64,000 nucleotides of DNA from contig CM037874.1 of the NCBI GenBank assembly GCA_021292105.1, positions 22,627,534-22,691,533 on the forward strand. The letters are read 5' to 3'. Position 1 is the stretch's first letter. Each line of letters opens with the position of its first letter. Positions 2,493-62,591 of this stretch are shown piece by piece. Position numbers and translations under genes: made by a program. The notes beneath the pieces were generated by a model. That model did not search any database and was not told the origin of the DNA. It worked only from the letters and a program-made list of their open reading frames with translations. This DNA is from Anadara kagoshimensis (lineage: Eukaryota > Mollusca > Bivalvia > Arcoida > Arcidae).

Positions 2493-3715
2493 CAGGAATT
2501 CTCCGACTGTCGCAAGAAAGTGCGCCTAAGCCTCTTAACATATTTTCGTTACTTGTTGAATATATAAGTTTCTAACCTCCGTAACGTAGTTTAAATCGCT
2601 TCATTTTGTAGACGTGAGCATTTTCTTCGGATATATTACCAATCCAGTCGGCAATTCGAACAGACAGCAAAGATATTTTCTCCATTTTATGTCAACATTC
2701 GCAGACAAAAATTGGACCAAATAAAACATTTTACATAGCTTGACAGTATCGTTTCAAGAGCGAAAATTGCTATCAATGTCTTATAGAAATTGCAAAACCT
2801 GTTTCTGTAAAACATGAATTTCAAAACCTTGTGCCACATTTCACATTCTGTCAATTTGCTTGCATGGTGTTTGTAACCCACGTAATACACAACTGCAGAA
2901 ACCAAACTGGCTGAGTGTTTTGTTTTTGCCCTTGAAAGATTAAAAAATATATTCAAATCGAGACATTGTTTACATTGCTGTCTGTTACATTCAGGGATAC
3001 CTTAACGCTTATATAATAGAGGCCCAAAATGGATTTTATATATACATTCATTTAGCGCATAAAACACTTTGTTCTGTCCCAAAACAGTTCATGAACTGTT
3101 TTATGTTTGTTTAGAGGAATTGGAAAATCCGCGAAAACAGTTAAAATATTTCTGAACCATATATATAGGAGATTAGGTAACAAAACTACATGTTTATAGG
3201 TGGGGTTTTCTGTAGTGTCAGATTTAGCTGCTTGTCTTTAAATGCAAGCATTAACCTTAGGCCATGATGATAAACACCGTACAAAATAAAGCCCTGTAAC
3301 ACAATTCCATGTAGGTGAGGTGGAGTATAAATGGAATCCGATTATATTAATTTAGCGTTTAAAAGCAATATATCAACATGAAACATTTAAATACTCTTGT
3401 TTCAAATTTCTGGTACCATTCAAGGTACAGAAAAACAACATTTCCCTGTCCGCTTGAGCATTAATTAGTTTCCACATAAGGACTTTATCAATCCTTATTC
3501 CCAGGAATTTTTTTTAAAATCACCAAATAAAGCATCTATCTTGCAATGAACTCATTTTTTTGCAAATGATGTAATGAATATATGAAATACAGAAAATAAG
3601 AATTGATTTTTCATTTATCGCAACAATTTAACGCCATTTCACCATGGATTCAAAATCGCAAAAAAAAACATTTTCTGCAGTCCCATCATAAATCGGGAGT
3701 TTGGTAGATTGCATA
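2493..3715. other. AT-rich intergenic stretch
   Basis: No gene seen. It holds a 22-bp perfect palindrome (3081-3102). It also has 12-bp inverted repeats (AACAGACAGCAA near 2658, its complement near 2975) that could be the ends of a decayed 330-bp MITE. Confidence 0.45.
3081..3102. repeat. 22-bp perfect palindrome
   Basis: AAAACAGTTC followed by its exact reverse complement, with no spacer. No neighbouring gene suggests a function. Confidence 0.6.
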
Positions 3716-3996
3716 TTATACCACTTTTAATTTTTTAGCACTAGACGGTCGTTTCGGAATACAATTCCTCATCAGTAATGCTTGGATCAAAATGTCAAAC
3801 CAAAAATTAATCTCAACATACCCAAAAGGACCAAAATACATTTTACCTAAACTAACTAAGGAATACTTTGCACAAAGGAGTAAATCTTAGTTTTTGATGA
3901 ACTTATGATTTTAGCTAGCAGTAAATGTAGACAATAGTATATTCTGGTAATAATACACAATTATTGCCCACGCCTACTGAGTTTGTGATATGCAAT
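3716..3996 (-). mobile_element. Hammerhead-ribozyme repeat, near full length
   Basis: One of the longest copies of a dispersed ~280-bp family. Read on the minus strand it begins near TATCACAAACTCA and runs through a conserved AAGTATTCCTTAG segment and a GGTCC segment. It then reaches the ribozyme about 35-45 bp before the end (TGGTATAATATG). No coding capacity. Related copies: 20345, 25180, 25502, 26082, 28640, 47443, 52165, 57508 and 59622. Confidence 0.75.
3737..3782 (-). ncRNA. Type I hammerhead ribozyme, core intact
   Basis: On the minus strand the order is stem I 5' arm AGCATTA, core CTGATGA, stem II GGAA-loop-TTCC, core GAAA, a minimal stem III (CG/CG with a 2-nt loop, closed by A-U), the cleavage triplet GTC, and stem I 3' arm TAGTGCT. 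Stem I pairs over 7 bp with one G-U wobble. All catalytic-core positions match the hammerhead consensus. The very short stem III resembles hammerheads of Penelope-like elements and metazoan retrozymes, which are thought to work as dimers (established knowledge). Activity here is inferred. Confidence 0.8.
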
Positions 3997-4346: not shown

Positions 4347-4920
4347 TGAAAATAAACACACCAATACCTGTCTAAATCATAATCCCAAAGCAATGTAAAA
4401 ACAAATATACCACTCCATGTCCAAATTACAATCCCGAGCAAAGTAAAAACCTTGAAAACTAAGTAACACAGATGAACTTCCACCAGGGAAGTGTAAGCAC
4501 CTCATATTTAGCTGACAACAAAGATGCCGGTCGATATTAAAATTACAATTTCATAAGCTTGGGAAAAAACTTTTAAAACTGGTAAACAAAGTTAAACATG
4601 AATGTTCACCAGGAAAGTGAGGGCGGGTGCTCCGGTAGGGTAAACACTACCTGTTTAGCTAGCTTAATCGATAGCTCGATAGCTGTATCAAACACAACAT
4701 ACCAAATCATGTCCGAATCGCAAGCCCAGAATAAAGAACAAACTTTGAAGACTATCATTATAAGTTTTACACGTGAATTGCCACCAGAGAAGTGAAGCTG
4801 GGTGTACCGGAAAAGCTTCTGTATAGCAATCTGCCCCGTCACATGTAAAATCAAAATTGAAAATGAAAGGAATACGGAACGTCAAATATACCTAGGATAA
4901 TTTTGGATACAGAGACATTT
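4347..4920 (-). repeat. Cluster of four retroelement 3' tails in one orientation
   Basis: Four partial copies of the Penelope-like 3' tail follow one another (about 4347-4400, 4403-4530, 4540-4680, 4687-4920). All are minus sense, each restarting near the same 3' terminus (AAACA-A/C-ACATACCA-like on the plus strand). The last copy reaches back to the TTTGACGTT region. Open frames here are accidental. Confidence 0.65.
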
Positions 4921-6837: not shown

Positions 6838-7320
6838 GCAATTTAAATAAGCTTTAAGGTTTTTAGCAAGAAAGATTTAATTTAATTGATTACTCCCCTT
6901 TGGCACCAGAGAACAAACATGTAGGTCTTCGTCCTTTCGTGGTAATGTTATTACATAGTAAAATTATGTTTACAGCACTAGGTTGTCTCAAATCCAATTG
7001 AATAATTCATGTTTAACAACTCAATGTCATGTTTGGTTAATTTGGAAAACGTGACCTCATGTTGTTTCAAGGGAATTCTGAAGGTGTGTTTCCTAATAAT
7101 ACATATGTTACATTATATGTTGTGTGTTGTATATATTTTATGAATGGACTGAAGAACTAGTCGTTTATTCTATGTTTTCGCAGAGTCACAGACCTTCCGC
7201 ATTATAGGTTTTGGTGAAATATTAAGAGAGGGTACTGGTTATGGCGAAAAACACAACAGATATATTTTGGATTTTAAATACTTTGCGAAAAACAAGGTGG
7301 TATAGTTATTGGGGTACATT

Positions 7321-14076: not shown

Positions 14077-15600
14077 TCAGTCAAGATTACTTTCTTTTTG
14101 ATTTTCAACATCGCCATTTTGAATTATTTTATCACCCGTGTTATAGTCTTTTGGTTTTGCATTATCATGATTAATATGATTCATCTCAAGTTTCCCGTCG
14201 TTCTCAGAAATCTCCTGGTCTTTCTTGATGTAAAACTGTATCACTAACGTAATTACAATCATAATGAAATATAACACAGCTGCTATTATAAAAGTAAAAC
14301 CTGGGAAAAGGTCCAAGGTAGTTCCGTACAGATAGGTAAAAATGACAGCAAAAAACTTGGCAATGGTCTCGCCACTTCCCAGAAGTGAAAACATTTTGCC
14401 GACTTCGTCTTCGTGTACAAGTTTACTAAGAAGAGATCTCATTGGAGAGTTGATTATCCCGCCAAAACTTCCTACTATCACGGCGAACCACACCATCCAT
14501 GACTTATTACTCCAAGCTAATATGGCAAAACGTATACAAGCGCATGCTAGACCAAGAATGCTGATAACAACGTCAGAGAGTTTTAAAACGCTAGAGAGAA
14601 TTGGTAACAAAAATAGAAGTACTAACCCCATAGCCGCATTATCTAATGCTGATAGATACCCGAACCAGGAGGTGGGCCAGCTTAGGGGTGACATTTCTGT
14701 AAAAAGTAAAGTAACGTCAGTTAAGCCCGTTCTACATGTCTGATGTAAAATTAAAACAAGAAAAAGACCTAATATATTCTTCCGTGTGTTACCTGTTCGT
14801 TTTTTATGAAGCACCAGTAATGAATCTGTCACGTTTTTTCCTTGGCATAGATATCTACATGGAAATAAATCCGTCTTATGATCAACCGGTATAGATTCCT
14901 TTAATATGCCAAGAGCCAATATCACAACCAAAGCATTCATAATAGATACGCAACAATAAGTCGTTAAAATATTCGTTTTCTCAATTAGAATACCTCCAAA
15001 TAAAGATCCTACAAACATCCCCAAAAACTGCATGGCAGCTAGCGTTCCTAATTTCTTAGTTCTTTTATCAGTTTCCGTTATATCGACAACAAAACTGTTA
15101 ACAGCCATACTAATCATAGCGGTTTTTCCGAAGCACCCATGTAGAAAGGATCCTACTAAGAAATAGGCTACTGAAGCTTCTTTAGACATATTTGCCCCCA
15201 TATAAAGTAAAACAGCAAACGTAGTTCCTAAACTTGGCATTATCATCGGGAGTTTTCGTCCGTGTCTGTCGCTCCAGGCTCCACAAAACATACCAAGCAC
15301 CAACGCAGGTGCGTTTGTCAATATTTTATGAAGTATTAAATATGTCGTCGCTTCTTTCTGGACATCATCTTCTATGTCCATATGAAGTTCCAGATGACGG
15401 CAATGCGATAGTCGTTTTGGATATAACGAATAACAAACTATTTGTGGAACATTCGGTCGCAACGTCGCATCTAACAGCGCGTCGCCAATGCTGTATATCA
15501 GAAACACTAAATTGATCCTACAGCCTCTGAAACAATCACAAAAACTGTTACATAACACTGTGGCTATTTCTAGAATTTTTGATACACGTAACGTCCCCAT
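14077..15600 (-). CDS. SLC46-type major facilitator transporter, single exon
   Basis: Encodes 507 residues in one uninterrupted frame. The first hydrophobic helix (about 29-45) runs into GDALLDATLRPNVPQ (39-53), the hallmark of the SLC46 family (proton-coupled folate transporter and relatives). A charged, Cys-containing loop follows (about 61-85). The MFS signature loop GAWSDRHGRKLP lies at 107-118, after helix 2. Roughly twelve hydrophobic segments continue to about residue 470, then a polar cytoplasmic tail rich in Asp, Asn and Lys. Length fits the family (about 450-500). In animals SLC46A1 carries folates with protons, and SLC46A2/A3 relatives move muropeptides, cyclic dinucleotides or lysosomal catabolites (established knowledge). 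The substrate here cannot be told from sequence. The Met at 15600 is the first in frame and leaves a plausible short N-terminus. There are no introns, unlike the neighbouring SLC43 gene, so a retroposed origin is possible. No internal damage is visible. Confidence 0.92.
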   Translation of the reverse strand: MGTLRVSKILEIATVLCNSFCDCFRGCRINLVFLIYSIGDALLDATLRPNVPQIVCYSLYPKRLSHCRHLELHMDIEDDVQKEATTYLILHKILTNAPALVLGMFCGAWSDRHGRKLPMIMPSLGTTFAVLLYMGANMSKEASVAYFLVGSFLHGCFGKTAMISMAVNSFVVDITETDKRTKKLGTLAAMQFLGMFVGSLFGGILIEKTNILTTYCCVSIMNALVVILALGILKESIPVDHKTDLFPCRYLCQGKNVTDSLLVLHKKRTGNTRKNILGLFLVLILHQTCRTGLTDVTLLFTEMSPLSWPTSWFGYLSALDNAAMGLVLLFLLPILSSVLKLSDVVISILGLACACIRFAILAWSNKSWMVWFAVIVGSFGGIINSPMRSLLSKLVHEDEVGKMFSLLGSGETIAKFFAVIFTYLYGTTLDLFPGFTFIIAAVLYFIMIVITLVIQFYIKKDQEISENDGKLEMNHINHDNAKPKDYNTGDKIIQNGDVENQKESNLD

Positions 15601-19806: not shown

Positions 19807-20344
19807 GAAGGGTAATTTGTAGTAATATTGGACACTCATAGGCTTGGTCCTTCTGAAATATACATAGAGTAAATGTCTCATTAGTTTTTGTCTAATCTAA
19901 GATCACCACACATTCATTAAAGCCTTTATCTATCTAAATGACTTGCTAGGAAGATGGAATTAGAATGTAATATTTAATAAACTGCAAGTCGGCTTCTTCA
20001 TGCTCCCACTTTTCAAAACACTTAATTGCTGCTATTCCACTTTGAATAATACAACTTCTTTTCAGAAAGAAGGACACACTGAGCTTTATAGATTCTGGGA
20101 TTAATTTTGGAACACATCCGTAGAATATTTGTTATTTTATGAATTTGGAAATAATTATCTCTGTATCTAGCGCTTTAATATTTTACCCTGGTATCTAGTG
20201 ATTTGACTACCCACTTGAGCTTGTGGAAAACATTGATACATCGATACAGTTGAACTAAATATTTAAATATTTAAGAATATCTACAATTACGGTTATATTT
20301 AGATACGTTCGTATATCTAAACGTTTGGTTTACATAATAACTTC
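19807..20344. other. AT-rich intergenic stretch
   Basis: Nothing recognised. Confidence 0.4.
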
Positions 20345-20612
20345 ATACCAGCTTTTATTTTACAGCACTAGACGGCCGCTTCGGAGTACAATTTCTCATC
20401 AGTAGTGCTTGGACCAAAATTGTGAAACTAATTTTATTTTAACTTATTGAACTGATACCCAAAGGACCAAATGTAGCTTAGGAAATACTTCGCATGAGGG
20501 GCTATACCTATATTTTGTTTTAGGAATTTCTAATTTAAACTAGAAGCAAAATTAGACAATAGTATAGTTCTCAAAATAATACACCATAACTGCCTGTTGA
20601 ATTTGTAACAGA
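20345..20612 (-). mobile_element. Hammerhead-ribozyme repeat, near full length, ribozyme decayed
   Basis: Same layout as 3716-3996. The ribozyme region is 20364-20409 (minus): stem I is perfect (AGCACTA/TAGTGCT) and CTGATGA and GTC are kept. Stem II has lost pairing and GAAA reads GAAG, so it is probably inactive. Confidence 0.7.
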
Positions 20613-22975: not shown

Positions 22976-24154
22976 AACCAGACACGTGATTCTTATTTTT
23001 AAATACACATTATGTACAATTATTGACAAATATATAAAAGCAGCTAATTAAGCGAGGATGTAAAGCTACATTGGTCCGCTATTTGTGATACTATCCTGAC
23101 AGTTGTAACACATACTGCCTATATTGAATAATCTGTAAATTATATGATGTAATATAGGAGTACATATGACACACCTTAGTTTAATGTTCAGCAGACATAA
23201 CCTGCTTGATGTACTCTTTGAAATTCAATTAAGAATTCGCATCCAGCAGATATATTCATGAAAAACATGACAAGTACATAACCATACAACTAAACAAGTA
23301 GAAACAAAAACAAGCGAACGAATAACTATATATTTGTACTAAATTTATGAACATCCTTATTTTATTTAAGTACCATGGTATGGTGTTTGGACAAGCAACG
23401 AAATAAATGTTCAATGTTTTGGTGATAGTTTTATTGGAAGGTCCATACCTATTACATATACGCATGAATAAAAAAGGAAATATTGAATCAACAATCTCAA
23501 ATCCAAAGCAAAATATTTCAAAATCACTATTGCAACGAAGATTAAAAAACTTTTGATAAGCAAGAGACTTGCAATATCCCACTCATGCATGAAATCGATA
23601 AGCCTTATTTCCCCAAAAAAATAATCCAATAATCGCTACTTTAACCTGATTTTAAAAAAAATCAAGATATACAAATTTCTCGCCGACAGATCTATACTTA
23701 CATGGTTTGACAAGTCTTTGTGGCTGATTTTTTTAAGCGTGCTTACGATTCACAGCGCCAACTCTCGACTAGATTCCAATCTTACTCTAACAGATCATAG
23801 TATGAAACACGCTGTCAGTTCGGTTGGTTTTCTGTTTTTACTTTGATTTCCTACACGAACCTAGAACTGACTACTTAGACATAAGAGTAGTGTTTTCAAA
23901 ATTGTATATGAAATTAGATAAAATAAACATCAGTAACCATAGGTGATAACAGGTACTCGGAATAGGGCCATATCACATACATATCACAAAACTACAGTGT
24001 TAAAAAATCGACCGTTCACATATAGCAGTTCAAAGTTTCTTTTTTTAAATACATTCTTGTCTTCTAAGTTTGAGTTGCATCTTTTATACAACTCACTCGT
24101 CATCTCAAATTTATTTTCTCTCCCAAACTACATTTTACCTACTTCATTTTTTAA

Positions 24155-25100: not shown

Positions 25101-25179
25101 TAGAAATCGAATGTTTTTGTCTAAATAAACATTTTGATCAGTGTTAGATTGTAAAAATATTTTCTTTTTCTAGTTTAAA

Positions 25180-25382
25180 TGTAACATTCTTCAAAAACTA
25201 AGGTTTACTCCCTAATACGAAGTATTTCCTTAGGTAAATTTGGAAAAATATATTTCCGTCCTTTGGGTATTATCTCAACATCTTCAAAAATTTAGTTTCA
25301 CAATATTGGTCTAAGCACTACTGATGAGGAATTGTATTCCGAAACGACCGTCTAGTGCTGTAAAATAAAAACTTGTATCATA
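25180..25382 (+). mobile_element. Hammerhead-ribozyme repeat, first of a direct pair
   Basis: Plus-sense copy, 5' truncated, containing AAGTATTTCCTTAGGTAAAT, the TTTGGGTAT segment and an intact ribozyme, and closing with AAACTTGTATCATACG. A second copy in the same orientation follows at 25502. Confidence 0.8.
25314..25359 (+). ncRNA. Type I hammerhead ribozyme, best copy
   Basis: Stem I arms AGCACTA (25314-25320) and TAGTGCT (25353-25359) pair perfectly over 7 bp. Between them, in order, are CTGATGA, stem II GGAA/TTCC around a TTGTA loop, GAAA, a minimal stem III (CG/CG, 2-nt loop, A-U closing) and the cleavage triplet GTC at 25350-25352. Every conserved core nucleotide is present. Cleavage would fall after C25352. 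The short stem III suggests weak activity as a monomer and better activity as a dimer (from known Penelope-type hammerheads). Confidence 0.88.
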
Positions 25383-25501
25383 CGAAATTGTTTATGATAT
25401 TTTCTAACAGCTCTTTTTTTTTACCTTTTATCAATATATTACGGAAATATCTTTTAAAAAATAAAAAAAATATGCAAACTCCCTTTATATTATTAGATAA
25501 A

Positions 25502-25725
25502 GTTTGAAATATCTTAAAAACTAAGGTATACTCCCTCATGCAAAGTATTTCCTTGGCTAAATTTGCTAAAATATATATTTGATCCCTGGGTATCTTTTCA
25601 ACATCTCAATATCTTGAAAAAAAAGAATGTTGGTTTTATAATTTTGGTCCAAGCACTACTGATGACAAATTGTATTCCGAAACAACCGTCTAGTGCTGAA
25701 AAAATTAAAACTGGTGTAATATGTA
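25502..25725 (+). mobile_element. Hammerhead-ribozyme repeat, second of a direct pair
   Basis: Same orientation as 25180-25382, offset by 338 bp ribozyme to ribozyme. It shows the CTCATGCAAAGTATTTCCTT block and ends AAACTGGTGTAATATGTAAT. Confidence 0.78.
25652..25697 (+). ncRNA. Hammerhead ribozyme, slightly decayed
   Basis: Stem I, CTGATGA, GAAA and GTC are all kept. The first pair of stem II is lost (C opposite C) and one stem III pair is weakened, so folding would be poorer than at 25314. Confidence 0.7.
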
Positions 25726-25879
25726 ATATATTACAACAGACTACAAATTAACTGACGTCCTGGAATCAAACCATGTCATCCTAAAGGACAAAGAAATTTC
25801 AAAAGATTAGGTTGTTTCAATCCCCATTATTATTTGTATGGTAATTTTTTTTAACATTTTCAACCATTTATTAAACAAT

Positions 25880-26050: not shown

Positions 26051-26081
26051 GTACATCACCTAATTAACACTAATATGGAAT

Positions 26082-26225
26082 ATTATACCAGTGTCGAATT
26101 TACAACACTATACGGCCGTTTTTGGAATGTAATTCCTTATCAGTAGTGCTTGGGTTAAAATTGTGAAACCAAAATATTTTCAAGGGGTTGAAAAAATATC
26201 CAAAGGACCAAAATATATTCAAACA
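26082..26225 (-). mobile_element. Hammerhead-ribozyme repeat, truncated
   Basis: Minus sense. The ribozyme region (26104-26150) has a changed core (CTGATAA) and a lost cleavage triplet, so it is inactive. Confidence 0.65.
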
Positions 26226-27810: not shown

Positions 27811-28639
27811 GAGTTAAATTAAAACAATCTTGCCATATTAACACGTAATTTTCACGGTAACATTGTATTACATTGTTTTGGCATCAAAGAAGTATAAATA
27901 TATATTTGCGATACGTGTGTTCTGTTTTAGCTATAAACTTTGCCTCACCCAGTTTTATGGCTCACCCAGTTTTACACCATCAGATTATAACGTAGGTCGG
28001 TAATACATAATGCCTTCTATGTCATCCGTGTAAGATTTTGTTTCAAAACAATCCATAATTATAATTAATCATAGCTACGAAAGATAATGATTCAAAGGCA
28101 TTTAATTTTTATGTACTTCTTAGGTCTCGGATCCAATTTTATCACTTAGTAAAAAAAACAATCTGTCATTTGGAATTTTTTTCAAAATGATTGTGCTATG
28201 TTTATCCTATTATAATTGTATGTAAGAAAATCAGAAAATGCTTTCTTATACAACCAAGAAATAAAGGTTTTTCTTTATTGCGTCAGCAAACATTTTTTGT
28301 TACTGGTTCACTTAATCACTTACCATCTCTTTTTTATATCTATAATATAATTTGTTTATATTTGACCAGATAAAACTCCTTTGATACATATGACAAGATT
28401 TTGCGAGATTCTACTGTCATCCAACAAATCCCATTTAAGTGTATTAAAAGGTTTTTTTTCTCTGTAGTATAAGAGAAACGTCTATATGACAGAACATATT
28501 GTCTTCATCCAATATTAAGTGCGTTTTTGTGTCATTCTATGTTTTTATATCATTTTCATTTTAAGACTCCCTTATCCCTAGAGAAAAAAATTATACTATA
28601 AAGATCATATTATTTTTATGTCACATTTAAAAAAATCAA
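27811..28639. other. AT-rich intergenic stretch
   Basis: CTCACCCAGTTTTA occurs twice in a row near 27945-27975. Otherwise nothing. Confidence 0.4.
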
Positions 28640-28828
28640 ATATATCGACATTCTTGGTGTTTTATTTAAAAAGGTATTTTGAATACATTTTGGTACTTAA
28701 GCTATCTTTTGAAAATCTTAAATAAAATTTTGGTTCCACACTTTTGGTCCAAGCATTACTGATGAGAATTGTATTCCGAAACACCGTCAGGTGCATAAAA
28801 TTAGAACTGGTATAGTATGCAATTGAAA
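28640..28828 (+). mobile_element. Hammerhead-ribozyme repeat, decayed
   Basis: Plus sense. The ribozyme region starts at 28752. CTGATGA, GAAA and GTC survive, but the stem I 3' arm is altered and stems II and III are shortened. Confidence 0.7.
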
Positions 28829-44703: not shown

Positions 44704-45955
44704 TAATCAAAAACAAACATACTAATCCATGTCCGAATAACAATCCAGAAGCAAAGTAAAAACTTTGGAACTGACAACCTAGGTTAGATACGTGAACTTC
44801 CACCAGTGAGGGAAGTGAGGCCAGGTGCTCCGGAAGGGTAAGCACCTCCTGTTTAGCTAGCTACACCCGCCACGTGTGTAATCAAAATTGCGTGAAAGGA
44901 ACATGGAACTATGAGACGTCAAATATATCCAGGGCAATCCTGGACACAGAGACATCAAACGTATCAACAATACTGTGATTACGGCCATAAAACTTTTTGA
45001 GGGCCTTGATAAGCCTAGGCTTGCAATACCCCTGAGTCAACAATTTATTTGCAAGCAGCCTACTTCGTTGTACAAAGTCCCCGTAGTGGGAACAAGCTCT
45101 ACCATAGCGTATTAATTTGGAAACAAATACACCATAAGCAGGAGAAGCAGGTATATTGCTGCATAAAAAAGGAAAGTTGATAATAGAAAAATTGAAGTCA
45201 TCACGTTTGTCATAAAGTTTCAAATGTAGCCTTTCGTGTGCGTCATAATTCAGGTATAAGTATAAATATGAAGCAGAACATGAGGAATCAGTCGTGTCTT
45301 TTATTTCAAGCTCACTAGGATAGATGACATTTACATAGTCTCCAAATTTAGGATTGTTAAGAGACAGAACATCATCTATATATCTCTATGTTGAGTTGAA
45401 TGATATGGCGACAGTCATTTCTCCAGATTTAACAAGGTTCTACATAAATTCTGCATCATAATAATAAAGAAACAAATCAGCAAACAATGGTGCACAGTTT
45501 GTACCCATTGGTATACCGATTGTTTGCTGAAAAACTATATTACCAAACACAACAAATATGTTATCTATCAAAAACTCCAACATTTTGTTGATGGTATCTT
45601 CAGTATATTTTTGTTTGGAATCCCTGTTCAGCACCAGATATTTGTATCTTGGCTTACCGTTTTTGTAAAAGAAAGACAAGTGAATAATTTCTTTGAGACG
45701 TTCTTTCAATTTAGAATGAGGGATAGTGGTGTATAGTGTAGAAAAATCAAATGTTTTTATACTTTTCACATGAGATAAAGTATTAGAAGCAAGATGTTCA
45801 AGTAATTCTTTAGAATTTTTTAGTATCAACATTTGGTTGATTCCAGATGTAGAATATACTTTTTCTGAATAAGACTGAAGACCATCTTTGACGATTGTCA
45901 AATTTTGTGTTAGAGTTACCGTACCGATAATGATTTAGTAGTACATTTAGATGAG
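44704..45955 (-). mobile_element. Penelope-like element with reverse-transcriptase remnant
   Basis: The best copy of the element behind the many tails. On the minus strand, FDFSTLYTTIPH (RT motif around the first catalytic Asp) and GIPMGTNCAPLFADLFLYY lie within 45440-45901. The C-terminal region LYDKRDDFNFSIINFPFLCS to VSRIALDIFDV lies within 44909-45223. Below that is the full 3' tail to 44704. These motifs resemble a widespread animal reverse-transcriptase family that I assign, with moderate confidence, to Penelope-like elements. No GIY-YIG domain follows the RT, so any endonuclease would be N-terminal (Naiad/Chlamys-like) or absent. It is 5'-truncated near 45955 and carries several breaks: a fossil. 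Confidence 0.8.
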
Positions 45956-47076: not shown

Positions 47077-50000
47077 CTGTAAAATAAATAAAAAAGAAAT
47101 CACAAATAAATAAAACCGCGAATAAATGCCATACAAAACAGCAATAGATTTGCCTGTAAAACAGAAAACAAAAACCAGATTAGATCGGTTATCTTCTTTT
47201 CAGAACTGTTGTATAAAAAAACTTAAACTGGCAATATTTTGCCAAAGACTATTGGAGTACAAATAACATTTATTGTTCTATCAAAACAATAACTCAATCA
47301 ATTACTTACATAAGCGGCATCTACTACATTTATATATCTAATAAAAACCCAATCAATTGCATCGACGAATTCTGTTACTAGATGAACATCGTAAATAAAA
47401 CGGACGATGTACCGGTATTTGAATTATATAACACTTACATATTACACCGGTTTTAATTTTACAGCACTAGACGGTCGATTCAAAATACAATTATTTTAAT
47501 ACCCCATCAGTAGCGTTTGGACAAATTTTATGAAACTACTTTTCCAAAGATGTTGAATAGATACCCAAAGGACCAAAATATTTTTTTTCAGATTTAGCTA
47601 AGGAAATACTTTGTTCATCATAAATAACGTCATTAGTTCTTGCCAGTCACATTATTCTTCAGAATTATTAACTTAATGTTTATATCACTGAATTACAAAA
47701 TACGCTTGCTCAACGATAATTTAAGAAACTAAAGGAATGCAATGTATCACACTATGTAATGATATTGGAAGATGCACGGTTTAAAGAAATATCTTCGGCA
47801 AAAGTTTTGAAATTAATTTTGACACATAAAAATAACAGATAACATTACAATAACATTGTATATCAGACAGAATGGCAACTATGATCGTAAAAATTTTTTT
47901 GATTATTTTATCTTGCATATCAGACAGAATGCAAATTATTATCGTAAAATATTTTTGATTACATGAGTTTTTTATCTTGGATATTGTCTATTCTATTGTT
48001 TTAAATAATGTTTTAAAAGTTCAGTATGTCACTTAACTCTTACCAAACACACATAATATGAGTGCAAATTATCGTATGTAAAAAGTACATGTGTTCAGTG
48101 GCTACAATTACACATTTTATGTGATACAACGCACTTTTATTTGTATTTGATTCCTCATAAAAGAAAAAAATCCAAGTTTCACGATAATTCCTTAACCGAG
48201 ATTTTCCTTAATTCATAAAAAACATTAAAAGTTAAAATACGAGTAAGTCGGTTATTTTTCAAAATACTCGGGCGTAAACAGTGTCATCCTGAAGAACTTT
48301 TTAGGTTTATTTAACTATGGTAAAGATAATTTTGTTATAGCACAAGAAGTTACTAAACATACTAAAATCGACTTGAGGGAAATTTTAGGTAAGGTGTGAT
48401 AGCAATGAAAACGATTATTTCACGCAACTGGACTATATGCACTACCTGCATGAATATGGATTTAGATTCAAATACAGATAGTTTAAATATGTCTGTAACT
48501 AATTCAAAAGAAACAGACTAATCCGTGTTCGAATCACAATCTCAAAGAAATTAAAACTTTTAAAACAAATTAGGTAAACACGTGAATTCCCGACAGGGAA
48601 GTGAGGCCCTTGTTCAGGAATGGTAAGAATCTTCTATTTAGCTGTCTACACCGCCATGCGTGTAATCAAAATTGAAGGTGAAAGGAATATGGAACTATGG
48701 GATGTCAATTATATCCATGGTAATCCTGGACACGATGACTTCATACTTAGCAACAATATTGTGACGATGGCAATAAAACTTCTTTGAGGGTTCTGATAAG
48801 CCTCTGCATGCAATAATTTATAACCGAACATGTAGTTGTACTAATCAGAAATTTCATTTTACAAACTTATTTAAACATGGAATCATTTAAATAAACTTAC
48901 GTGATCGATTGCATTAGGGTAAGAATCACCCCAAACAAACAATGCATATTGAATCATACTGAACACACCGGCTATTGACAGTTCGGATCCAAATATAAGT
49001 GTACTGTATTTAGCAGGAAACCTAAAATTAAATACATAAATAAAACGCAAGTAAGCCCATTTAGCAACAGAGAATACAGCGAACTGATAAATCTTACGTC
49101 TTTGTCCCAATAAAAAAATAACCAGAGATAACGATATTTTATTGTTTCTTGTAGGCTTTATTTTTAGTATTTGCAAGTCAACATAGAAGACGTATGTACT
49201 TTTGATTATCATTAGTTTACTGAATTAGAAGTTTTACTTTCCTTTCAATTTCGTTGATCGCTGGAATTACGGGATTGTCAATAGCCACGAACACGAAACA
49301 ACCTTTTGGCAAACTAAAATCCCAATAGAATTCGTTATTTGCATCCCAAACGAAACCAGATGAGTTTCGATAACTGCACCAAGTAATGAGCGTTTATAAA
49401 AGAAATAAATTTTTGAAATTTGAAAATAATTAGTAATTCTAGAACGCAGCTAACATAATGTAAAACTTATGTAGCTGTGCGGTTCAAATGTTTTTGTTAA
49501 ATTCTATACAAATGCTCTTGAAAAAGAGCCACCTTTAACTAAAGTGTGTCATTAACTATATATACTTACGTGCTGACAAAATACTGCATATTTACACAAT
49601 ACATGAAGGATCTTAGAAAGACCATGACTATAAACGTTAGGTACAGCAAAGACGGTACATTACTAAATGCTAGCCCAGATAGAAGTAAGTTCAGACATGA
49701 CGTCAGTACTAAAGGAACTATCAATGGTAGTAATTTGCGTTTCATTTCTGACTTGTTGTCTACAAAAGAAATTAAATATATGTCTGTATCCAGGATTGCC
49801 CTGGATTTATTTGACGTCTTAAAGTTCCATGTTCCTTTCACTTAAATTTGATTACATATATATGGGGTGTAGCTAGCTAAACAGCATGTGTTTACCCTTC
49901 CAGACCACACGATCTCATTTCCCGTTGAAAGTTCATGTGTTTAATCTGACTTTGCTTTTGGATTGTGAATCGGATTAGTACGTTTGTTTTTGATATTAAC

Positions 50001-53000
50001 TAATTGTATGATAGAGTATAAATCTTACAACATTTTTCGACAAAGTTCTTAGACCGTTTTTGTCTACTTGATTAATTTGCCCCGCTCTGCAATACATGAA
50101 CGCAGAGGAAACTGTATGTTTTAAGGTTTTTTTGTGTTTTTTTTTTGTAAACACAAAAAATAAACTGCTATGTTGAAAAATTTTAAAGGTGAACATACTA
50201 CATATTAAGGATCTTGAAAATGGATTTAGGATACTGCTAGTTTTAAACCAAATTATGGAATTCATTAAAAGCAAATTACAACTTAAATAAAAAATTTAAA
50301 ACTAAGCACCAAATGATTATTGATAATATTGATGAAGTATTGGTTAGAGATAAAAGGGAGTGCTGATTTAAGACATTTTATAATATAAACGACAGCATTG
50401 GTTATAAACAAGGGATAGACCATTCTAATACTGATTCACACAACGCACATTTTCTTAGACTTTTCACTGATAGAGAACATAATGAGTCTTCGGCTATTAA
50501 CTAAATAGATAAAAAACAAAGCTTATAGCCGGGATTTATTGACAGGTTAACTTAATTTGTCATAAAATCGAAGCCACAATGACATTGTTTTTCTAGTCTC
50601 AAATAAATAAATTTTTGACACTTTAAACTGACATTGTCAATCTTCAGGATATGAGAAACAAACTTAGCCCATTACCCAAACAAATGAAGACGCTGAATCC
50701 ATTTTCTAAATGAATGAATGTCTATGATAGACGTCGGGCCTAGACAAATAGTTTGGTAAATTAGCTAAAACGGTTATTACGTACCCTTAAATATTCTCTG
50801 CTGCCACTCACAAAATAATCCTGCTATCACTGATGATATTAAACCGCCAAACATAACATAAGCTAATATATTAGTGAAGTAGCCCACTAAAAAATAAAGT
50901 AAATATAGATTGATCATATGTTATCAGAAATAAAGTACATTATATATTTAGAAATACGTACAGTCCAGCCTGCGTTAAGGCCGCCTTTATATAAGGGCCA
51001 CCTGCCTATAAAGGCCATTAGAATTGTAACCCAATTGTTCTTTATTCATTTTATTTGAAAATGTATATAAAGATCACCTGCCCGTAAAGGTAATTTTACT
51101 GGTCCTCTATGGTGACCAATAGAGAAGGTTTGACTGTACCTTGAAAACACATACCTGAAAAATAATTAATGCAGCTTAGAGCAGAACAGACCAAACGAAA
51201 AAAACGAGGATGGGTTTAGTTACAAAAATGTTCGAAGAGCTACAACTTCCCACTTTAAAAAAGTGACGACTTAATACAGATGGTTGAGGCGTTAGTGCCA
51301 ATTAGTGTCTTAATCGTATGGTTCTCGTTCTCAAAAACAATTAATATACGGAATGAATTGCAGATCCAATCAAAATCATTTTAATAAATAACATTCCTTT
51401 GTAAGGTACCAATAAAATGCAATGTAAAAAAAGAGACAAACTTGTGTTCATAAAAGAACCATACACTGATATAATACGAGAACTAAGTGTAAAAACAAAC
51501 TTGTATCTAGTAGTTGGATTCAATTTTAGTTTTTTCCAATTCTGATTAACAAGTATAATTCTATTTCTTAAAAAGATTAAAGTATCTTGATAGTGTTAAT
51601 ACATCTGCGACAGCTTAATTTTCAGGAAATATAATATTTTCATAAAAATGTCATTTTTACAATTGAACATTTTACCACAATAGACAAACGTTTACATCTC
51701 TGTTGCTTTTCCCTCACATGGACTGGCATGTTTATATTTCTTTTAGACTTATACTTTTACTATCGCTGTCTCATCACGGCATCACACCTCATTTATGTAT
51801 TTATCGGGCAAATTTCTAGTTTCAAAAAATAACTTTGAAAAAATATTCTTAATCAAACACATTGGTCAATGTCCAAATCAAATTTCAAAGGCAAAGTAAA
51901 GTGAAAACTGGCAAAAATTTTTAAAAAAAAACGTAACCCTTTACCAGGTAAGTAATAATAATGGCAAATTTAACTACCTGTAAAGAATCAAATCAGAACA
52001 AAATACTATAAAAGTGATGGATTCAACTGTCAAATATATCGATACAAATAGCATCTAATGTTAAACGATTGTCCGGATTATGCTTCAGAATACGCGAATC
52101 TCAAATAACTGTTTATACGTGCAAAACAACACACAAAAATACAACTCAGTTTCAAAAAGAAGAATTATTTTTAAGGTATACTTCCTCATGCAAAGTATTT
52201 CCTTAGCTAAAGTTTGGTCCTTTAGGCATCTTTCTAAAATGTTGAAAACATTTTTGGCTTCATAATTTTTTTCTAAGCCCTACTAGTGACGAATTGTATT
52301 CCAAAAACGACCGTCTAGTGTTGTAAAATTAAAAACTGGTATAATAATCAAAAACAAACATACTAATCCATGTCCGAATCACAATCCAGAAGCAAAATAA
52401 AAACTTTGGAACTGACAAGTTAGGTTAGACACGTTAACTTCCACAGGGAAGTGAAGCCGGGTGCTCCATAGATAATTTTTATTTAAAAAAATAGAAAATT
52501 AGCAATTTATAATATGCATTTACACAGTCGATACAAGAACTTCGTAAAATGCATAAACTAATACACCTATAAGCCTTGCAATTTAAATAGTATTGTGAAC
52601 TAGAAAAAAATAATTAAACGTGTTAAAGCTTCTTTGACGCCTTCGTATAATACACTTTAAACATGACAGAATATAAGAGAACGAGGTTCAATGTACGCCA
52701 ACAATGTTGTCAAACACAGCCCAGTGTAGATAATTGCATTTGCAACACTATAATATTATAGATGAAATGAGGTGTGTGCGAAAATGATTCAAACTTAAAA
52801 ACCACTGGTTCCAAATAAACAGCCAAATGTAAATAATGGAATCTGCACCACAATGAATTTATAAATGAAAGAGATGTGTACTAAATTATTTAAAAGTAAA
52901 AAAAGATAACCAAGGCATACCTTCGCTGGTTGTAGCTAAATTGTTTTCGAGATGAGCATTAATGGATCCAACGAAGTAGTAAAATCGTAACACCAGGGCA

Positions 53001-57500: not shown

Positions 57501-58151
57501 CCAATAATTACATATTACACTAGTGTTAATTTTATGGTAATAGATTACTAGTATTTGGTTCAAAATTGTAAAACAAATTTTTTAAGGGGTTGAAAACTAT
57601 CCAAAAAGGACCAAAATATATATCGTTCACTAAATTTAGCTTAGAAAATACTTCGCAAGACGGAGATTTTATAATTATTTATTTGTGTTTACGTGACTTA
57701 TATTATTGTATATACTTACATGAAAAACAACCGTGTTTTAGCATTACCAAATCGCTGGTTTACAAGACCAGCTGAGAAGTCAAACACGGTAAGAACAGCA
57801 ACTCCTATACTGAATAACAAATTCAACCGGTCGTTTTGTTCTGTGCAGGATACTGGACTTCTATTGTCTTTTGATTTTAGTATTTCTGATGATGTATTCA
57901 CGTTGTACTTTTGTGTATTCCATGGAGTGGACTTCACTATATAAAAGGTTTCATTAGGATTATCTGTAGGACTGACTAATAAAATTGACGTATCATTGGT
58001 TCTGTGATGGCACAAGTCTGAATAAACGCCTTCTTCTTTAAGCACAAACACAAGAGAACTCCATCCAAAAGGTAGTCCAGAAAATAATATCACCTCTACT
58101 AATGATAAAACAACCAATAAACCTATTTTTGCGTTCTGTGTGTCATGGTAA
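46972..58151 (-). CDS. SLC43-type transporter, spliced gene (12 coding exons seen)
   Basis: Assembled from exons whose GT/AG boundaries and phases fit together. The predicted product is about 530 residues, lacks only its extreme N-terminus, and resembles the SLC43 family. That family includes LAT3 and LAT4 (facilitated transport of neutral amino acids) and ENBT1 (purine nucleobases), all twelve-helix MFS carriers of the plasma membrane. Order of landmarks: helix 1 with GWSSLVFVLKEEGVYSDLC; a large outside loop with N-glycosylation sequons; NQRFGNAKTR as the MFS-type loop; IGFLNGCYDSSAS; a charged central loop (exons 5-7); LSTRFIFHLAWMSALVLRFY; GYFTNILAYVMFGG; and FPAKYSTLIFGSELSIAGVF before the last helix. 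It ends with a short basic tail. Which SLC43 subtype it is, and hence its substrate, cannot be settled. No damage is evident. Introns are loaded with repeats. Confidence 0.88.
47114..47165 (-). repeat. Partial duplication of the last exon's 5' edge, acceptor included
   Basis: Plus-strand ATGCCATACAAAACAGCAAT and GCCTGTAAAACA mirror ATGCCATGCAAAACAGCAAG and ACCTGTAAAATA at 47050-47083. On the minus strand this recreates a TTTTACAG acceptor followed by about 12 exon-like codons. Confidence 0.75.
47443..47612 (-). mobile_element. Hammerhead-ribozyme repeat in the last intron of SLC43
   Basis: Minus sense, same strand as the gene. The ribozyme region (47463-47517) has CTGATGG for CTGATGA, a longer stem II insert and GAAT for GAAA; it is inactive by inspection. 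Confidence 0.7.
47859..47979. repeat. Two-unit tandem repeat, about 60 bp
   Basis: ATATCAGACAGAATG is followed by ATCGTAAAA and TTTTTGATTA, occurring twice in a row. Confidence 0.75.
48176..48411. mobile_element. Palindromic element family D
   Basis: About 236 bp with ~37-bp inverted ends: GTTTCACGATAATTCCTTAA at the left and its diverged complement (AATTTTAGGTAAGG to ATGAAAAC) at the right. Its ends match those of the element at 61667-62591. In the last intron of SLC43. Confidence 0.7.
48500..48815 (-). mobile_element. Penelope-like 3' end in an SLC43 intron
   Basis: Minus-sense tail plus a short stretch of the ORF end (48720-48815). Diverged. Confidence 0.7.
48901..49021 (-). CDS. SLC43-type gene, exon 11
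   Basis: 121 nt between TTAATTTTAG and GTAAGTTTA. Encodes FPAKYSTLIFGSELSIAGVF and SMIQYALFVWG, the clearest SLC43 block in the C-terminal half. Confidence 0.92.
49570..49751 (-). CDS. SLC43-type gene, exon 10
   Basis: 182 nt, donor GTAAGTATA. Encodes SEMKRKLLPLIVPLVLTSCL and two further hydrophobic stretches ending YCVNMQYFVS. The phase fits exon 9 only if AACAAG is the acceptor. A stronger-looking TTTTGTAG lies 8 nt upstream (intron boundary 49760) but would shift the frame. Confidence 0.8.
49783..49997 (+). mobile_element. Penelope-like 3' tail in SLC43 intron 9
   Basis: Plus sense, opposite to the gene. TATCCAGGATTGCCCTGGAT begins only about 20 bp from the exon 10 acceptor; it ends TACGTTTGTTTTTGATATT 20-odd bp from the exon 9 donor. 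It makes up most of this 277-bp intron. Confidence 0.75.
50029..50084 (-). CDS. SLC43-type gene, exon 9
   Basis: 56 nt, donor GTAAGATT. Encodes GQINQVDKNGLRTLSKNV, a hydrophilic linker. The frame requires the second AG of GCAGAG as the acceptor; using the first AG would introduce a stop. Confidence 0.75.
50785..50886 (-). CDS. SLC43-type gene, exon 8
   Basis: 102 nt between TTATTTTTTAG and GTACGTAA. Encodes GYFTNILAYVMFGGLISSVI and then AGLFCEWQQRIFK. The G+TG junction gives Val in phase with exon 7. Confidence 0.88.
50957..51140. repeat. Palindromic element family C, copy 2
   Basis: GTACAGTCCAGCCTG at one end and AGGTTTGACTGTAC at the other, with GGCCACCTGCCTATAAAGGC and ATCACCTGCCCGTAAAGG inside. 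In SLC43 intron 7. Confidence 0.65.
51852..51985 (-). mobile_element. Penelope-like 3' tail, diverged
   Basis: Minus sense; AATCAAACACATTGGTCAAT to ATTTAACTACCTGTA. In SLC43 intron 7. Confidence 0.55.
52165..52345 (+). mobile_element. Hammerhead-ribozyme repeat, inactive
   Basis: Plus sense, opposite to SLC43, in intron 7. The ribozyme region (52275-52322) has a scrambled CTGATGA core; GTC and most of stem I remain. It ends exactly where the next retroelement tail starts. Confidence 0.7.
52346..52469 (-). mobile_element. Penelope-like 3' tail, nearly consensus
   Basis: Minus sense; ATCAAAAACAAACATACTAA, then CCGAATCACAATCCAGAAGC. Very close to 9060-9212, so it is among the youngest insertions. 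It abuts the ribozyme repeat without spacer. Confidence 0.78.
52921..53088 (-). CDS. SLC43-type gene, exon 7
   Basis: 168 nt between TGTGTACAG and GTATGCC. Encodes KTEKEENVKDVLLSTRFIFH and LAWMSALVLRFYYFVGSINA, the family's helix after the central loop. Confidence 0.9.
54023..54046 (-). CDS. SLC43-type gene, 24-nt micro-exon 6
   Basis: Bounded by AATAATTTCAG and GTGAGTTG. Adds eight charged residues (EKENLFKE across the junctions) to the cytoplasmic loop and preserves phase 1, so skipping it would keep the frame. Confidence 0.8.
54243..54420 (+). mobile_element. Penelope-like 3' end in SLC43 intron 5
   Basis: Plus sense; a trace of the ORF end, GTCCTAGATATATTAAACA, then CTTTGGATTGTAATTTGA. 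Strongly diverged and shortened. Confidence 0.55.
54510..54538. repeat. (GA)n microsatellite beside the exon 5 donor
   Basis: About 14 units; (CT)n in gene sense, starting about 9 nt into intron 5. Confidence 0.9.
54548..54722 (-). CDS. SLC43-type gene, exon 5
   Basis: 175 nt after TATTTTTCCAG, donor GTAACAAAAC. Encodes YLFESGISRQYTYIGITVLQ, a helix, and the start of the charged central loop. A (CT)n tract in sense begins only about 9 nt past the donor site. Confidence 0.88.
55107..55199 (-). CDS. SLC43-type gene, exon 4
   Basis: 93 nt, phase 0 at both ends, between TTTGTTTCAG and GTAATATG. Encodes IYIGFLNGCYDSSASVQIIV, which matches the conserved GxFNGxxDSSS region of SLC43 proteins. Confidence 0.92.
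55370..55500 (-). mobile_element. Penelope-like 3' tail, diverged
   Basis: Minus sense, in SLC43 intron 3; ATCACAAACACACCGGACCA to GTGCTCGGGAAGTGTAAGC. Confidence 0.55.
55904..55980 (-). CDS. SLC43-type gene, exon 3
   Basis: 77 nt between CTGTATTTCAG and GTATGTG. Encodes IPWLILPGIILTGIGGFALV, a transmembrane helix of the family type. Confidence 0.88.
56005..56168. repeat. Palindromic element family C, copy 3
   Basis: AAGGGACACCTGCTATCAAA on one side and GGCACCTGCCCATAACGTCC inside, ending CTTTATAAACAGGTTTGATT. In SLC43 intron 2. Confidence 0.6.
56521..56567 (-). CDS. SLC43-type gene, exon 2
   Basis: 47 nt between CTATTTTCAG and GTACGATT. Encodes VLYAIGALCTAFAST. Phases fit exon 1 (AT+A) and exon 3 (G+AC). 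Confidence 0.88.
56690..57312 (-). mobile_element. Penelope-like 3' end with ORF remnant
   Basis: Minus sense, in SLC43 intron 1. Tail and C-terminal reverse-transcriptase region up to about 57215, parallel to 44909-45240. A second short piece of the same region (57218-57312) follows, so part is repeated. Broken in several places. Confidence 0.7.
57508..57665 (-). mobile_element. Hammerhead-ribozyme repeat, ribozyme lost
   Basis: Recognised by ATTACACTAGTGTTAATTTT and ACCAAAATATATATCGTTCA. The ribozyme segment is deleted. In SLC43 intron 1. Confidence 0.55.
57720..58151 (-). CDS. SLC43-type gene, coding exon 1 of those seen
   Basis: The acceptor GTTGATAG precedes 58151 and the donor GTAAGTATA follows 57720 (phase 2). 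Encodes helix 1 (GLLVVLSLVEVILFSGLPFG), the SLC43 hallmark GWSSLVFVLKEEG and a Cys-containing outer loop with NDT, NET and NTS sequons. It then encodes helix 2 and the loop NQRFGNAKTR. No in-frame Met lies at its start, so an upstream exon should supply the initiator. Confidence 0.9.
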
Positions 58152-59376: not shown

Positions 59377-59621
59377 TCTTATCTGAATTAACATTTCTGA
59401 AGGAATGCATCAAGTAGAATAAGGGTGTCCTTATCTAGTATATATATGTTATATAATATATAATTTTAGTGCAGTAGCAACAAGCTTAAGTATCTACAAA
59501 AGTACAAGGGCCACATGGCCTTTTCTATATTTGTTTTTTTTTTTTTTTTTAATTTTAGATGTTGCCGTCGTATTAAAGATTAATTTTGGGAAATATATAA
59601 AGAGTATTCAAATACATATTA

Positions 59622-59895
59622 TATCAGTTTTAATTTAACAGCACTAGACGACCGTTTTGGAATACAATTCCTCATCAAATGATGCTTGGACCAAAAGTAT
59701 GAAACCCAAAGGTTTTTAAAGAAACACAAAGAGACCAAAATATATTTTACCAAATATAGCTAAGAAAATACTTTGCATGAGGAATAATACCTTAGTTTTT
59801 TAGGATTTTCAAATTTTAACTTGCAGCAAAATTTAGACCAAAAGTATATTTCTGACAATAATACACAACAATATGGACTTCTGATTTTGTGATAT
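59622..59895 (-). mobile_element. Hammerhead-ribozyme repeat, near full length
   Basis: Minus sense; one of three copies keeping both ends. The ribozyme region (59640-59686) has extra bases before TTGATGA, and AAAA for GAAA; it is inactive by inspection. Confidence 0.72.
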
Positions 59896-60029
59896 CCTGG
59901 GGCAACAGCCACATACAGAGGCACCATCTTAGTAGTTTAAATTAGATAATATACCAGTTTTAACTTAATAATTATTTTTTATTTTACGTGATAAAATCAG
60001 GGTACACATGATAATCCTTAATCTATCAT

Positions 60030-61666: not shown

Positions 61667-62591
61667 GGTTTCACAATCATCCCTTAACCAAGATTTTCCT
61701 TAAGTTTGGCAAATAATATATTGTAATAATTTTGTTAATTTCTTAAGATATTCTGGAATTTAAGGTGTCATTTTGAAGATCAGTCAAAGCTCATTATAGC
61801 GATATACCACGGTATATAACCCGGAGAACTTTCATTTACGTTTAGTAACTGGTGATGAAACAAGGATTCATCATTGGGACCCGGGAACAAAAAAATAGTC
61901 CATGCAATGGAAGCACCCTAGCCCATCCCCACCAAAAAAATTCAAAACCCAACCATCAGCTGGCAAAGTCATGGCCACTGTGTTTTGGGATTCTAAGGGG
62001 TTCTGTTAATCAATTAAAACCTCCTGGAATTTCTATCACTGGGGCTTACTATGCTGATCTAATGAAGCAATTGAAAGCTGCTATTAAATTAAAAAAGAGG
62101 GAAAAGTTGAGCCGAGGGGTATTGCTTATTCACGACAATGCTCTTGTGCACAAGTCAAGGATTGCACAAGCAGCGATTCGTGAATGCAAGTTCGAACAAC
62201 TTAATCACCCACCCTACAGTCCCGATTTGGCACCCAGTGATTATTTTCTATTTAGAAATTTGAAATCCTATTTACGGGGAATCAGATTTCCTGATGATGG
62301 TGGACTTAATGCTGCCACAGAGGCATGGTTTCAGGACCAAACCGAAGACTTCTATTTCAAAGGTATAGACAGTCTGAAAGAAAAGTGGGCTAAGTGCATA
62401 GGGGTAAATGGGGACTATATTGAAAAATAATAATAAAATGTATGCTTTGTTGCGGCAATATATACCCTGTTCTATGAACTTTTTGACCTCCCCTCGTATA
62501 TATAAATTTTCTCGAATTTTTTTATTTGAAGTATCATAATTATGTTGCCAAAATTGTACCAGATTTAAGAGTTTAGGAATGATTGTGAAAC
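61667..62591. mobile_element. Palindromic element family D carrying a mariner
   Basis: The left end GTTTCACAATCATCCCTTAA and the right end AGGAATGATTGTGAAAC are inverted repeats (13 bp exact). The left end matches the 48176 element for about 37 bp. The mariner remnant sits in its middle. Confidence 0.65.
61830..62496 (+). mobile_element. Mariner transposase remnant (D34D)
   Basis: Encodes the C-terminal catalytic part of a mariner transposase. GDETRIHHWDPGTKK (first catalytic Asp) is near 61855. After a frame change near 62015, PGISITGAYYADLMKQLK follows, then LIHDNALVHKS (second Asp) and HPPYSPDLAPSDYFLF (third Asp, 34 residues further on), with the stop at 62428-62430. The 3' end has the mariner-like terminus TTGACCTCCCCTCG followed by TA. 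The N-terminal DNA-binding half and left terminus are missing. One stop and one frameshift break the rest, so it cannot make an active enzyme, although all three catalytic Asp codons survive. Confidence 0.88.

Follow-up and report, generated by a model that had tools for sequence, protein, structure and literature searches.

A 339-bp repeat of Anadara kagoshimensis with one type I hammerhead per unit: a probable metazoan-type non-LTR retrozyme with a Penelope-like insertion footprint

Introduction

Metazoan non-LTR retrozymes have been described from coral, mussel, and axolotl on the basis of northern blots, RNA circles, and cleavage assays (Cervera and de la Pena 2020, PMC7229834). Their mobilisation by Penelope-like elements (PLEs) has been proposed earlier (PMC7229834, PMC7761336), and the consulted sections of a 2020 review describe retrozyme repeats as carrying no motif that would reveal an autonomous partner, with PLEs as likely candidates (PMC7761336). 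According to the consulted part of a study of an anole PLE, reverse transcription by the PLE protein begins within the template, at positions that correspond to genomic ends, and both strands of the cut are extended (PMC11167929). Among the open-access titles and abstract openings listed, none reported that animal retrozymes have fixed 3′ ends or head-to-head arrays, and a literature search for hammerheads in bivalves had no hammerhead paper among the matches listed.

Here, we examine a hammerhead motif in a 64,000-nucleotide stretch of the ark clam Anadara kagoshimensis (GenBank assembly GCA_021292105.1, contig CM037874.1, positions 22,627,534 to 22,691,533), which we call the window, and the repeat that carries this motif, which was searched for in 1.115 Gb of genome sequence on 36 contigs.

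A complete type I hammerhead motif

The following elements were read in the window, on the plus strand:

25314..25359, plus strand: type I hammerhead ribozyme, all core nucleotides and three stems
25314-25320 and 25353-25359, plus strand: stem I, AGCACTA/TAGTGCT, 7 bp
25321-25327, plus strand: core CTGATGA
25328-25340, plus strand: stem II, GGAA/TTCC, alternatively GGAAT/ATTCC (5 bp)
25341-25343, plus strand: core GAA
25344-25345 and 25350-25351, plus strand: stem III, AC/GT, with loop GACC
25352, plus strand: C17, with predicted cleavage between 25352 and 25353

The stretch 25314-25359 thus combines the conserved core (CUGANGA ... GAA ... H17) with three stems and is open at stem I. The complete core, the 7-bp stem I, stem II, a minimal stem III, and the cleavage triplet GTC had all been placed correctly in an initial annotation made from the sequence, as can be read directly in the letters, and the cleavage position predicted there is the same as ours. 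That annotation also held a chance origin to be unlikely, a view upheld by two scans. In a strict scan that required the core and stems I, II, and III of 6, 3, and 2 bp, respectively (G-U permitted), two sites came up in the 64-kb window, 25321-25352 on the plus strand and 3744-3775 on the minus strand, and 0 in 60 windows simulated from a first-order Markov model of the window; a looser pattern (up to three mismatches) matched five times in the window, against 0.01 expected.

Scanned alone, the 25314 site aligned over its full length to the Rfam model RF00163 (Hammerhead_1) with 26.1 bits (E 5.4e-5 for 76 bases), below the gathering score of 34, which is a curator's cut-off and no part of the ribozyme. 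A covariance-model score under threshold was one half of the refutation test named in the initial annotation, and that half therefore went against its reading. In the whole window every Rfam family stayed below its gathering score, and a scan of 24.5-26.5 kb with E up to 10 had no hammerhead among its matches. A single unit of locus L003, a near-uniform array, scored 28.1 bits against RF00163, again below 34, and the Rfam gathering score was reached by neither L003 nor L009, both arrays of the same retrozyme family. Published mussel hammerheads likewise do without most of the loop-loop nucleotides, according to the consulted part of PMC7229834. Against a family model built with the 25314 copy included, the 25314 hammerhead scored 117 bits.

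The stems had also been called co-varying, a claim that did not hold: two-sided changes were seen in 0 of 14 pairs among 47 retrozyme copies, a test with little power because the copies are closely related, and RNAalifold predicted no pairs on this alignment, although 93.7% of its cells are paired. The unconstrained minimum-energy fold of a 49-nt piece differs from the hammerhead fold. In circular folding, stems I and II had a probability of 0.70 to 0.98 and stem III of 0.0, in a model that takes no account of tertiary contacts that might hold a 2-bp stem. The palindromic stem III segment in its GGCC form, ACGGCCGU, gave an intermolecular duplex of -15.5 kcal/mol, and the GACC segment of the window copy, ACGACCGU, a weaker one of -5.2 kcal/mol; by this model, a GGCC-form stem III could pair between two ribozymes. 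Such palindromic pairing is not new, since Rfam's own consensus has a similar segment (RF00163 alignment).

Copies of the repeat in the window

A model of the family, built on 47 copies of which the window supplied nine, detected ten window copies at E <1e-5:

25172..25390, plus strand: copy 1, 5′-truncated, from unit position 157 to ~38 past the cut, with the complete hammerhead
25391..25494, plus strand: inter-copy stretch without detectable similarity to the retrozyme unit
25495..25730, plus strand: copy 2, core and stem I intact, two basal pairs of stem II broken (CAAAT/ATTCC)
3705..3991, minus strand: copy with complete core at 3744-3775 and one G-U in stem I
20327..20606, minus strand: copy with G in place of A15.1 and one mismatched pair in stem II
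26080..26219, minus strand: copy with G8 and G12 both changed to A, inactive by the core rule
28618..28828, plus strand: copy in which stem II and loop III each lack one base
47429..47613, minus strand: copy with A9 changed to G and an insertion in stem II
52172..52357, plus strand: copy with altered core CTAGTGA
57502..57665, minus strand: copy with most of the hammerhead deleted
59606..59966, minus strand: copy with C3 changed to T and G12 to A, ~360 bp, the longest single copy of the window

The initial annotation had reported that the layout recurs in other copies. This is right for the repeat itself, of which there are ten copies in the window, and wrong for the complete ribozyme, which only two of the ten have by the strict test. 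The window copies are diverged, mostly 5′-truncated products, and the one at 25314, itself diverged and with the loop GACC unlike the commoner GGCC, happens to retain a complete ribozyme.

The hammerhead of copy 2 lies 338 bp downstream of that of copy 1. A decayed dimer was considered for the two and gained no support: the spacer 25391-25494 aligned to the unit no better than shuffled sequences did (-8.5, with a shuffled mean of -5.2). Nor is the spacer a clear copy of upstream sequence (22.0, with the shuffled 95% point at 23.5). A 157-base query across it was found at two places in the genome, here and in a paralogue on C18, by a search that skips very common words. This segmental paralogue of window 23.7-26.9 kb, at C18:11942707-11945890 on the same contig, is 93% identical over 3.18 kb and has the same retrozyme copies. 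Position 1 of the corresponding locus L001 is window position 23697.

Elsewhere in the window, there are an uninterrupted 507-aa frame of an MFS transporter (14077-15600, minus strand) and a frame of 192 aa that matches the DDE_3 transposase (61852-62430, plus strand). At 45005-45823 (minus strand), weak tblastn similarity to PLE reverse transcriptase (RT) frames was seen (E ~1e-6), with no RT recognised by Pfam in the 153-aa frame; this is perhaps an RT relic.

Genome-wide distribution and array homogeneity

Genome-wide, the exact core CTGATGA-N12-CGAAACNNNNGTC occurs at 7,225 sites (3,630 forward, 3,595 reverse), the reversed-pattern control giving 0. The loop is GGCC at 4,492 of these sites and GACC, as in the 25314 copy, at 749. 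The best-matching copies are tandem arrays with a period of 339 bp and one hammerhead per unit, the unit being AT-rich by its letters. Isolated sites were common: 76 of the 100 sites listed first for contig C1 had no second listed site within 3 kb, and 11 single plus-strand C1 sites belonged to copies of 97 to 363 bp, the longest being cut short by the limits of the stretch examined. A second class of array, with pieces starting at 289 and ending at 50, was suspected and dropped; the fetched loci have the same unit and mostly the usual 3′ end. Five hammerhead-core sites with unusual stem II and loop II letters lie within 160 kb at C2:24841216-25000638, perhaps a local variant family. Some hammerhead sites are inside other repeats, with common flanks in L085/L088 and L090/L092.

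Comparison of 87 units from 39 arrays gave a mean distance of 1.6% within arrays (87 pairs) against 4.5% between them (3,654 pairs). At six variable sites, 20 of the 26 multi-unit arrays had a single haplotype, against 4.6 expected by shuffling. In some arrays (e.g. L035, L028, L032, and L036), the distance between units is about twice that to the nearest unit elsewhere, which fits the expectation for array units identical at birth and later decaying independently.

Selection on the hammerhead core was not detected: the core gave 0.035 and the remainder of the unit 0.047 (p 0.39), and the hammerhead as a whole, at 0.030, ranked 36 of 339 windows along the unit. In 5 of 39 arrays (L005, L016, L036, L047, and L050), one or more full units have A in place of the catalytic G8 (unit position 313), and in three of the five, other units of the array retain G. 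This is the most frequent G-to-A site of the unit, which is not striking over 58 G sites.

The insertion footprint

Copies were mapped on a circular unit in which position 1 is the first base past the cleavage site. The set comprises 58 copies that differ in their 3′ flanks; it favours close matches and includes three copies from the window locus and its paralogue. A common 3′ end was found: 41 of the 58 stop at unit positions 36-45, most often at position 38 (18 copies), and the remaining 17 have their 3′ end outside this cluster. The picture was similar for the 11 single plus-strand C1 sites, which were taken without regard to similarity: 7 of 11 end at 38-42 (6 of 9 when counted by distinct flanks). 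The 5′ ends of the 41 copies are scattered, with all ten bins of the unit occupied. Lengths of the 58 copies range from 0.18 to 7.17 units, and 15 are below one unit. Because copies cross the cut/ligation junction, their template was circular or an uncleaved multimer, and not a linear cleaved monomer.

The mapped copies have no target site duplication (TSD) signal (mean longest flank match 4.52, vs 4.60 permuted) and no LTR-like ends, a poly-A tail is absent from the junctions listed, and the flanks have no clear target motif (54-80% A+T by position vs ~68% in the window). There is no strong PLE frame beside the arrays of L001-L060: a tblastn search with six PLE frames, covering ~1.5 kb of flank in most loci, gave at E <1e-3 only a weak match at L014 (5e-5). 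Apart from that match, this search thus found beside the arrays no sign of the RT and GIY-YIG frame that a PLE carries.

Neighbouring copies tend to face each other in part of the material; orientation was counted for retrozymes and PLEs alone. Among the first 100 C1 sites, retrozyme neighbours within 3 kb were head-to-head in five cases and tail-to-tail in none (one-sided p 0.031). Among the fetched loci, counted by eye with old fragments included and the window locus taken once, the numbers were six and four. Tight head-to-head junctions occur at L042 (16 bp apart) and L015/L017 (overlapping), and no tail-to-tail retrozyme pair was nearer than 300 bp.

Penelope-like elements of the same genome

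A GIY-YIG search gave at least 50 matches, with 150 of 248 candidates scored. Twenty loci were examined, not all of them PLEs: L063, at 103-1947 on the minus strand, has a 614-aa frame matching UvrC (GC 0.29) that is broken under translation table 11 and open if TGA is read as tryptophan, and its contig, C22, looks like a Mollicutes-like bacterial contig within the assembly. Both RVT_1 and GIY-YIG are in the frames of L070 and L081, and GIY-YIG alone in that of L072. Three of the 20 loci (L068-L070) have a match to the strict hammerhead expression downstream of GIY-YIG, and hammerheads of other GIY-YIG loci were read by eye in stretches of their sequence:

L068-L070: PLE family D, stem I GTC/GAC, stem III ACATGT
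L066, L072, L076, L078: PLE family A, stem I GTAAAGCAT/ATGCTTTAC, stem III AGCGCT
L071/L077/L080/L065 and L081/L082: two further PLE groups, stem III AGCGCT

By eye, the stem I sequences vary between families and yet pair. Four PLE loci scanned (L070, L071, L072, and L081) did not reach the Rfam gathering score.

PLE copies, too, have 3′ ends close past the hammerhead. For family D, where 40 of 220 candidates were scored, the 3′ end fell at query positions 242-250 in 39 of 40 places, the fortieth being the query itself, and the mode, 247, is 68 nt past the cut. For family A (40 of 112 candidates scored), the distance from the cut to the 3′ end is 38-42 nt; among the 41 rows counted, 15 end at 251, 24 at 252-283 in the query's AT repeat, and two at the query end. 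In the two further groups the tails, read by eye, extend ~90-100 nt past the cut, except ~33 in L065. Family A copies that were read abut AT repeats, whereas retrozymes do not, and no sequence common to retrozyme and PLE tails was seen. Therefore, no PLE family examined here fits the retrozyme in both tail length and target, because A sits at AT repeats, the D tail is 68 nt long, and the further groups have ~90-100.

Within 5 kb, neighbours of family D were head-to-head 12 times and tail-to-tail 0 times (40 places), and those of family A nine times and twice, respectively (43 of 72 matches, short pieces excluded and two near-identical C3 regions both included). Head-to-head arrays of family D are located at C13:51885119-51894279, C3:3385567-3392653, C16:10339528-10344727, and C4:16808611-16813319, with same-strand spacings of 1.90-1.96 kb and one of 2.58 kb; they look as if they were circle-copied too.

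A proposed cycle and its alternatives

The initial annotation took the site for a complete type I hammerhead carried by a dispersed element of the Penelope/retrozyme sort. This interpretation is supported, its second part by the 339-bp units, the 7,225 exact-core sites, and the hammerhead-bearing PLEs of the genome. We consider it probable, and hold this with good confidence, that we are dealing with a non-LTR retrozyme of the metazoan type: a small non-autonomous retroelement of 339 bp with one type I hammerhead per unit, which would likely spread via a circle and a Penelope-like copying cycle. In this cycle, a genomic array would be transcribed into a multimer, in which each hammerhead, judging by its motif, would cut between GUC and U. 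The monomer would be ligated into a circle, a step that others have demonstrated in mussel and axolotl. A putative Penelope-like RT, primed by nicked DNA, would then start at a fixed internal site ~38 nt past the cut, matching the common 3′ end observed, and would run round the template until stopping, which would leave the scattered 5′ ends and non-integer lengths that are seen. The products would be either truncated single copies or arrays in which near-identical units follow each other in tandem, both present among the mapped copies. The footprint and the PLE parallels support a Penelope-type copying of an RNA circle that the hammerhead would have made, and array homogeneity together with the footprint would fit one circle per array.

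Were the repeat a satellite that carries the ribozyme as a passenger and spreads through unequal crossing-over and segmental duplication, one would look for what is indeed present—tandem arrays of period 339, a segmental paralogue of the window locus (93% over 3.18 kb), and some hammerhead sites within other repeats. However, 58 copies have differing 3′ flanks and thousands of sites are dispersed, 15 of the 58 are shorter than one unit, and crossing-over gives no reason for one fixed end where a common 3′ end is combined with scattered 5′ ends; we regard this origin as highly improbable. LINEs and their SINEs are copied by target priming, typically with fixed 3′ ends and 5′ truncation, so the same two traits would suit mobilisation by a LINE-type enzyme instead of a PLE. 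This we judge improbable, because the junctions listed are without a poly-A tail, a TSD signal is absent, and PLE families A and D share with the retrozyme both a 3′ end close past the hammerhead and head-to-head pairs. That the 339-bp unit is the pseudo-LTR of a PLE and no independent retrozyme would agree with its stem III of just 2 bp and with the minimal hammerheads and tandem occurrence of PLE pseudo-LTRs in the consulted parts of PMC7761336 and PMC11167929. Yet the search near L001-L060 gave only the weak L014 match, the PLEs examined have other hammerheads and tails, and a 7-bp stem I with a stem III tetraloop is unlike minimal PLE motifs, which leaves this reading with very little probability.

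A further alternative keeps the retrozyme and changes its template: copying would proceed from uncleaved multimeric transcripts, with cleavage dispensable. In vitro, the anole PLE accepts for insertion both wild-type RNA and RNA with a dead hammerhead, according to the consulted part of PMC11167929, and the retrozyme core is without clearly stronger constraint, with G8A in 5 of 39 arrays. For these two reasons, the ribozyme may matter less than the proposed cycle suggests. On the other hand, array units are mostly near-identical and of one haplotype, whereas read-through of a mixed, aged array would carry differences, and circles of such elements are reported as abundant in mussel in the consulted part of PMC7229834. 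We therefore think copying from uncleaved transcripts unlikely, while keeping it in view.

Returning to the circle-based cycle, we offer one extension of it tentatively, at somewhat under an even chance, namely that retrozymes parasitise PLEs. The PLE enzyme would bind the RNA circle, start at a fixed site tens of nucleotides past the junction, and roll into one or both strands of a break, which would produce tandem and head-to-head arrays; the ~1.96-kb arrays of family D would likewise come from PLE-derived circles. The behaviour of the anole PLE protein would readily explain why 3′ ends are fixed and products lie head-to-head. The footprint—a 3′ end near the cut in retrozymes and in two PLE families, scattered retrozyme 5′ ends, and head-to-head pairs—bears on the question of the copying enzyme, and makes a direct test feasible with purified PLE protein and a retrozyme RNA circle.

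Comparison with known systems

In the consulted part of PMC7229834, the nearest described elements are the retrozymes of Mytilus galloprovincialis, AT-rich tandem units of ~350-390 bp, compared with 339 bp in Anadara. As in the mussel family described there, each unit has one type I hammerhead, copies range from dimers to multimers, and PLEs are present in the same genome; the copy number is ~5000 in mussel, and 7,225 exact-core sites were counted here (PMC7229834). Transcripts and circles have been shown for the mussel retrozymes and are predicted for that of Anadara. Published metazoan retrozymes are reported to have TSDs, of >4 bp when present, and no TSD signal was seen here. The common 3′ end and the head-to-head pairs recorded here were not found reported in the consulted part of PMC7229834.

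Like hammerhead PLEs (pseudo-LTRs), the retrozyme has a fixed 3′ end close past the hammerhead, 5′ truncation, and head-to-head neighbours, and family D is also tandem. Unlike the retrozyme, PLEs encode RT and GIY-YIG, and the hammerheads of families A and D, read by eye, have no room for a stem III loop (AGCGCT and ACATGT). Units of 330-350 bp and a palindromic stem III segment are common to amphibian satellite 2 and axolotl retrozymes, the stem III being 2 bp here vs 1 bp in axolotl Amex1. Plant LTR retrozymes differ in their type III hammerhead and in a dimeric LTR arrangement with PBS and PPT, whereas the Anadara element has a type I hammerhead and multimeric units.

The traits of the retrozyme class (tandem units of 150-450 bp, low GC, and one type I hammerhead each) are present in the 339-bp unit. 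Members of this class are further described as non-coding, as devoid of LTR, PBS, and PPT, and as expressed in the form of circular RNA. Because the element agrees with them in size, layout, copy number, and coexistence with PLEs, we file it with the metazoan non-LTR retrozymes—a kind already known, of which the member described here is new.
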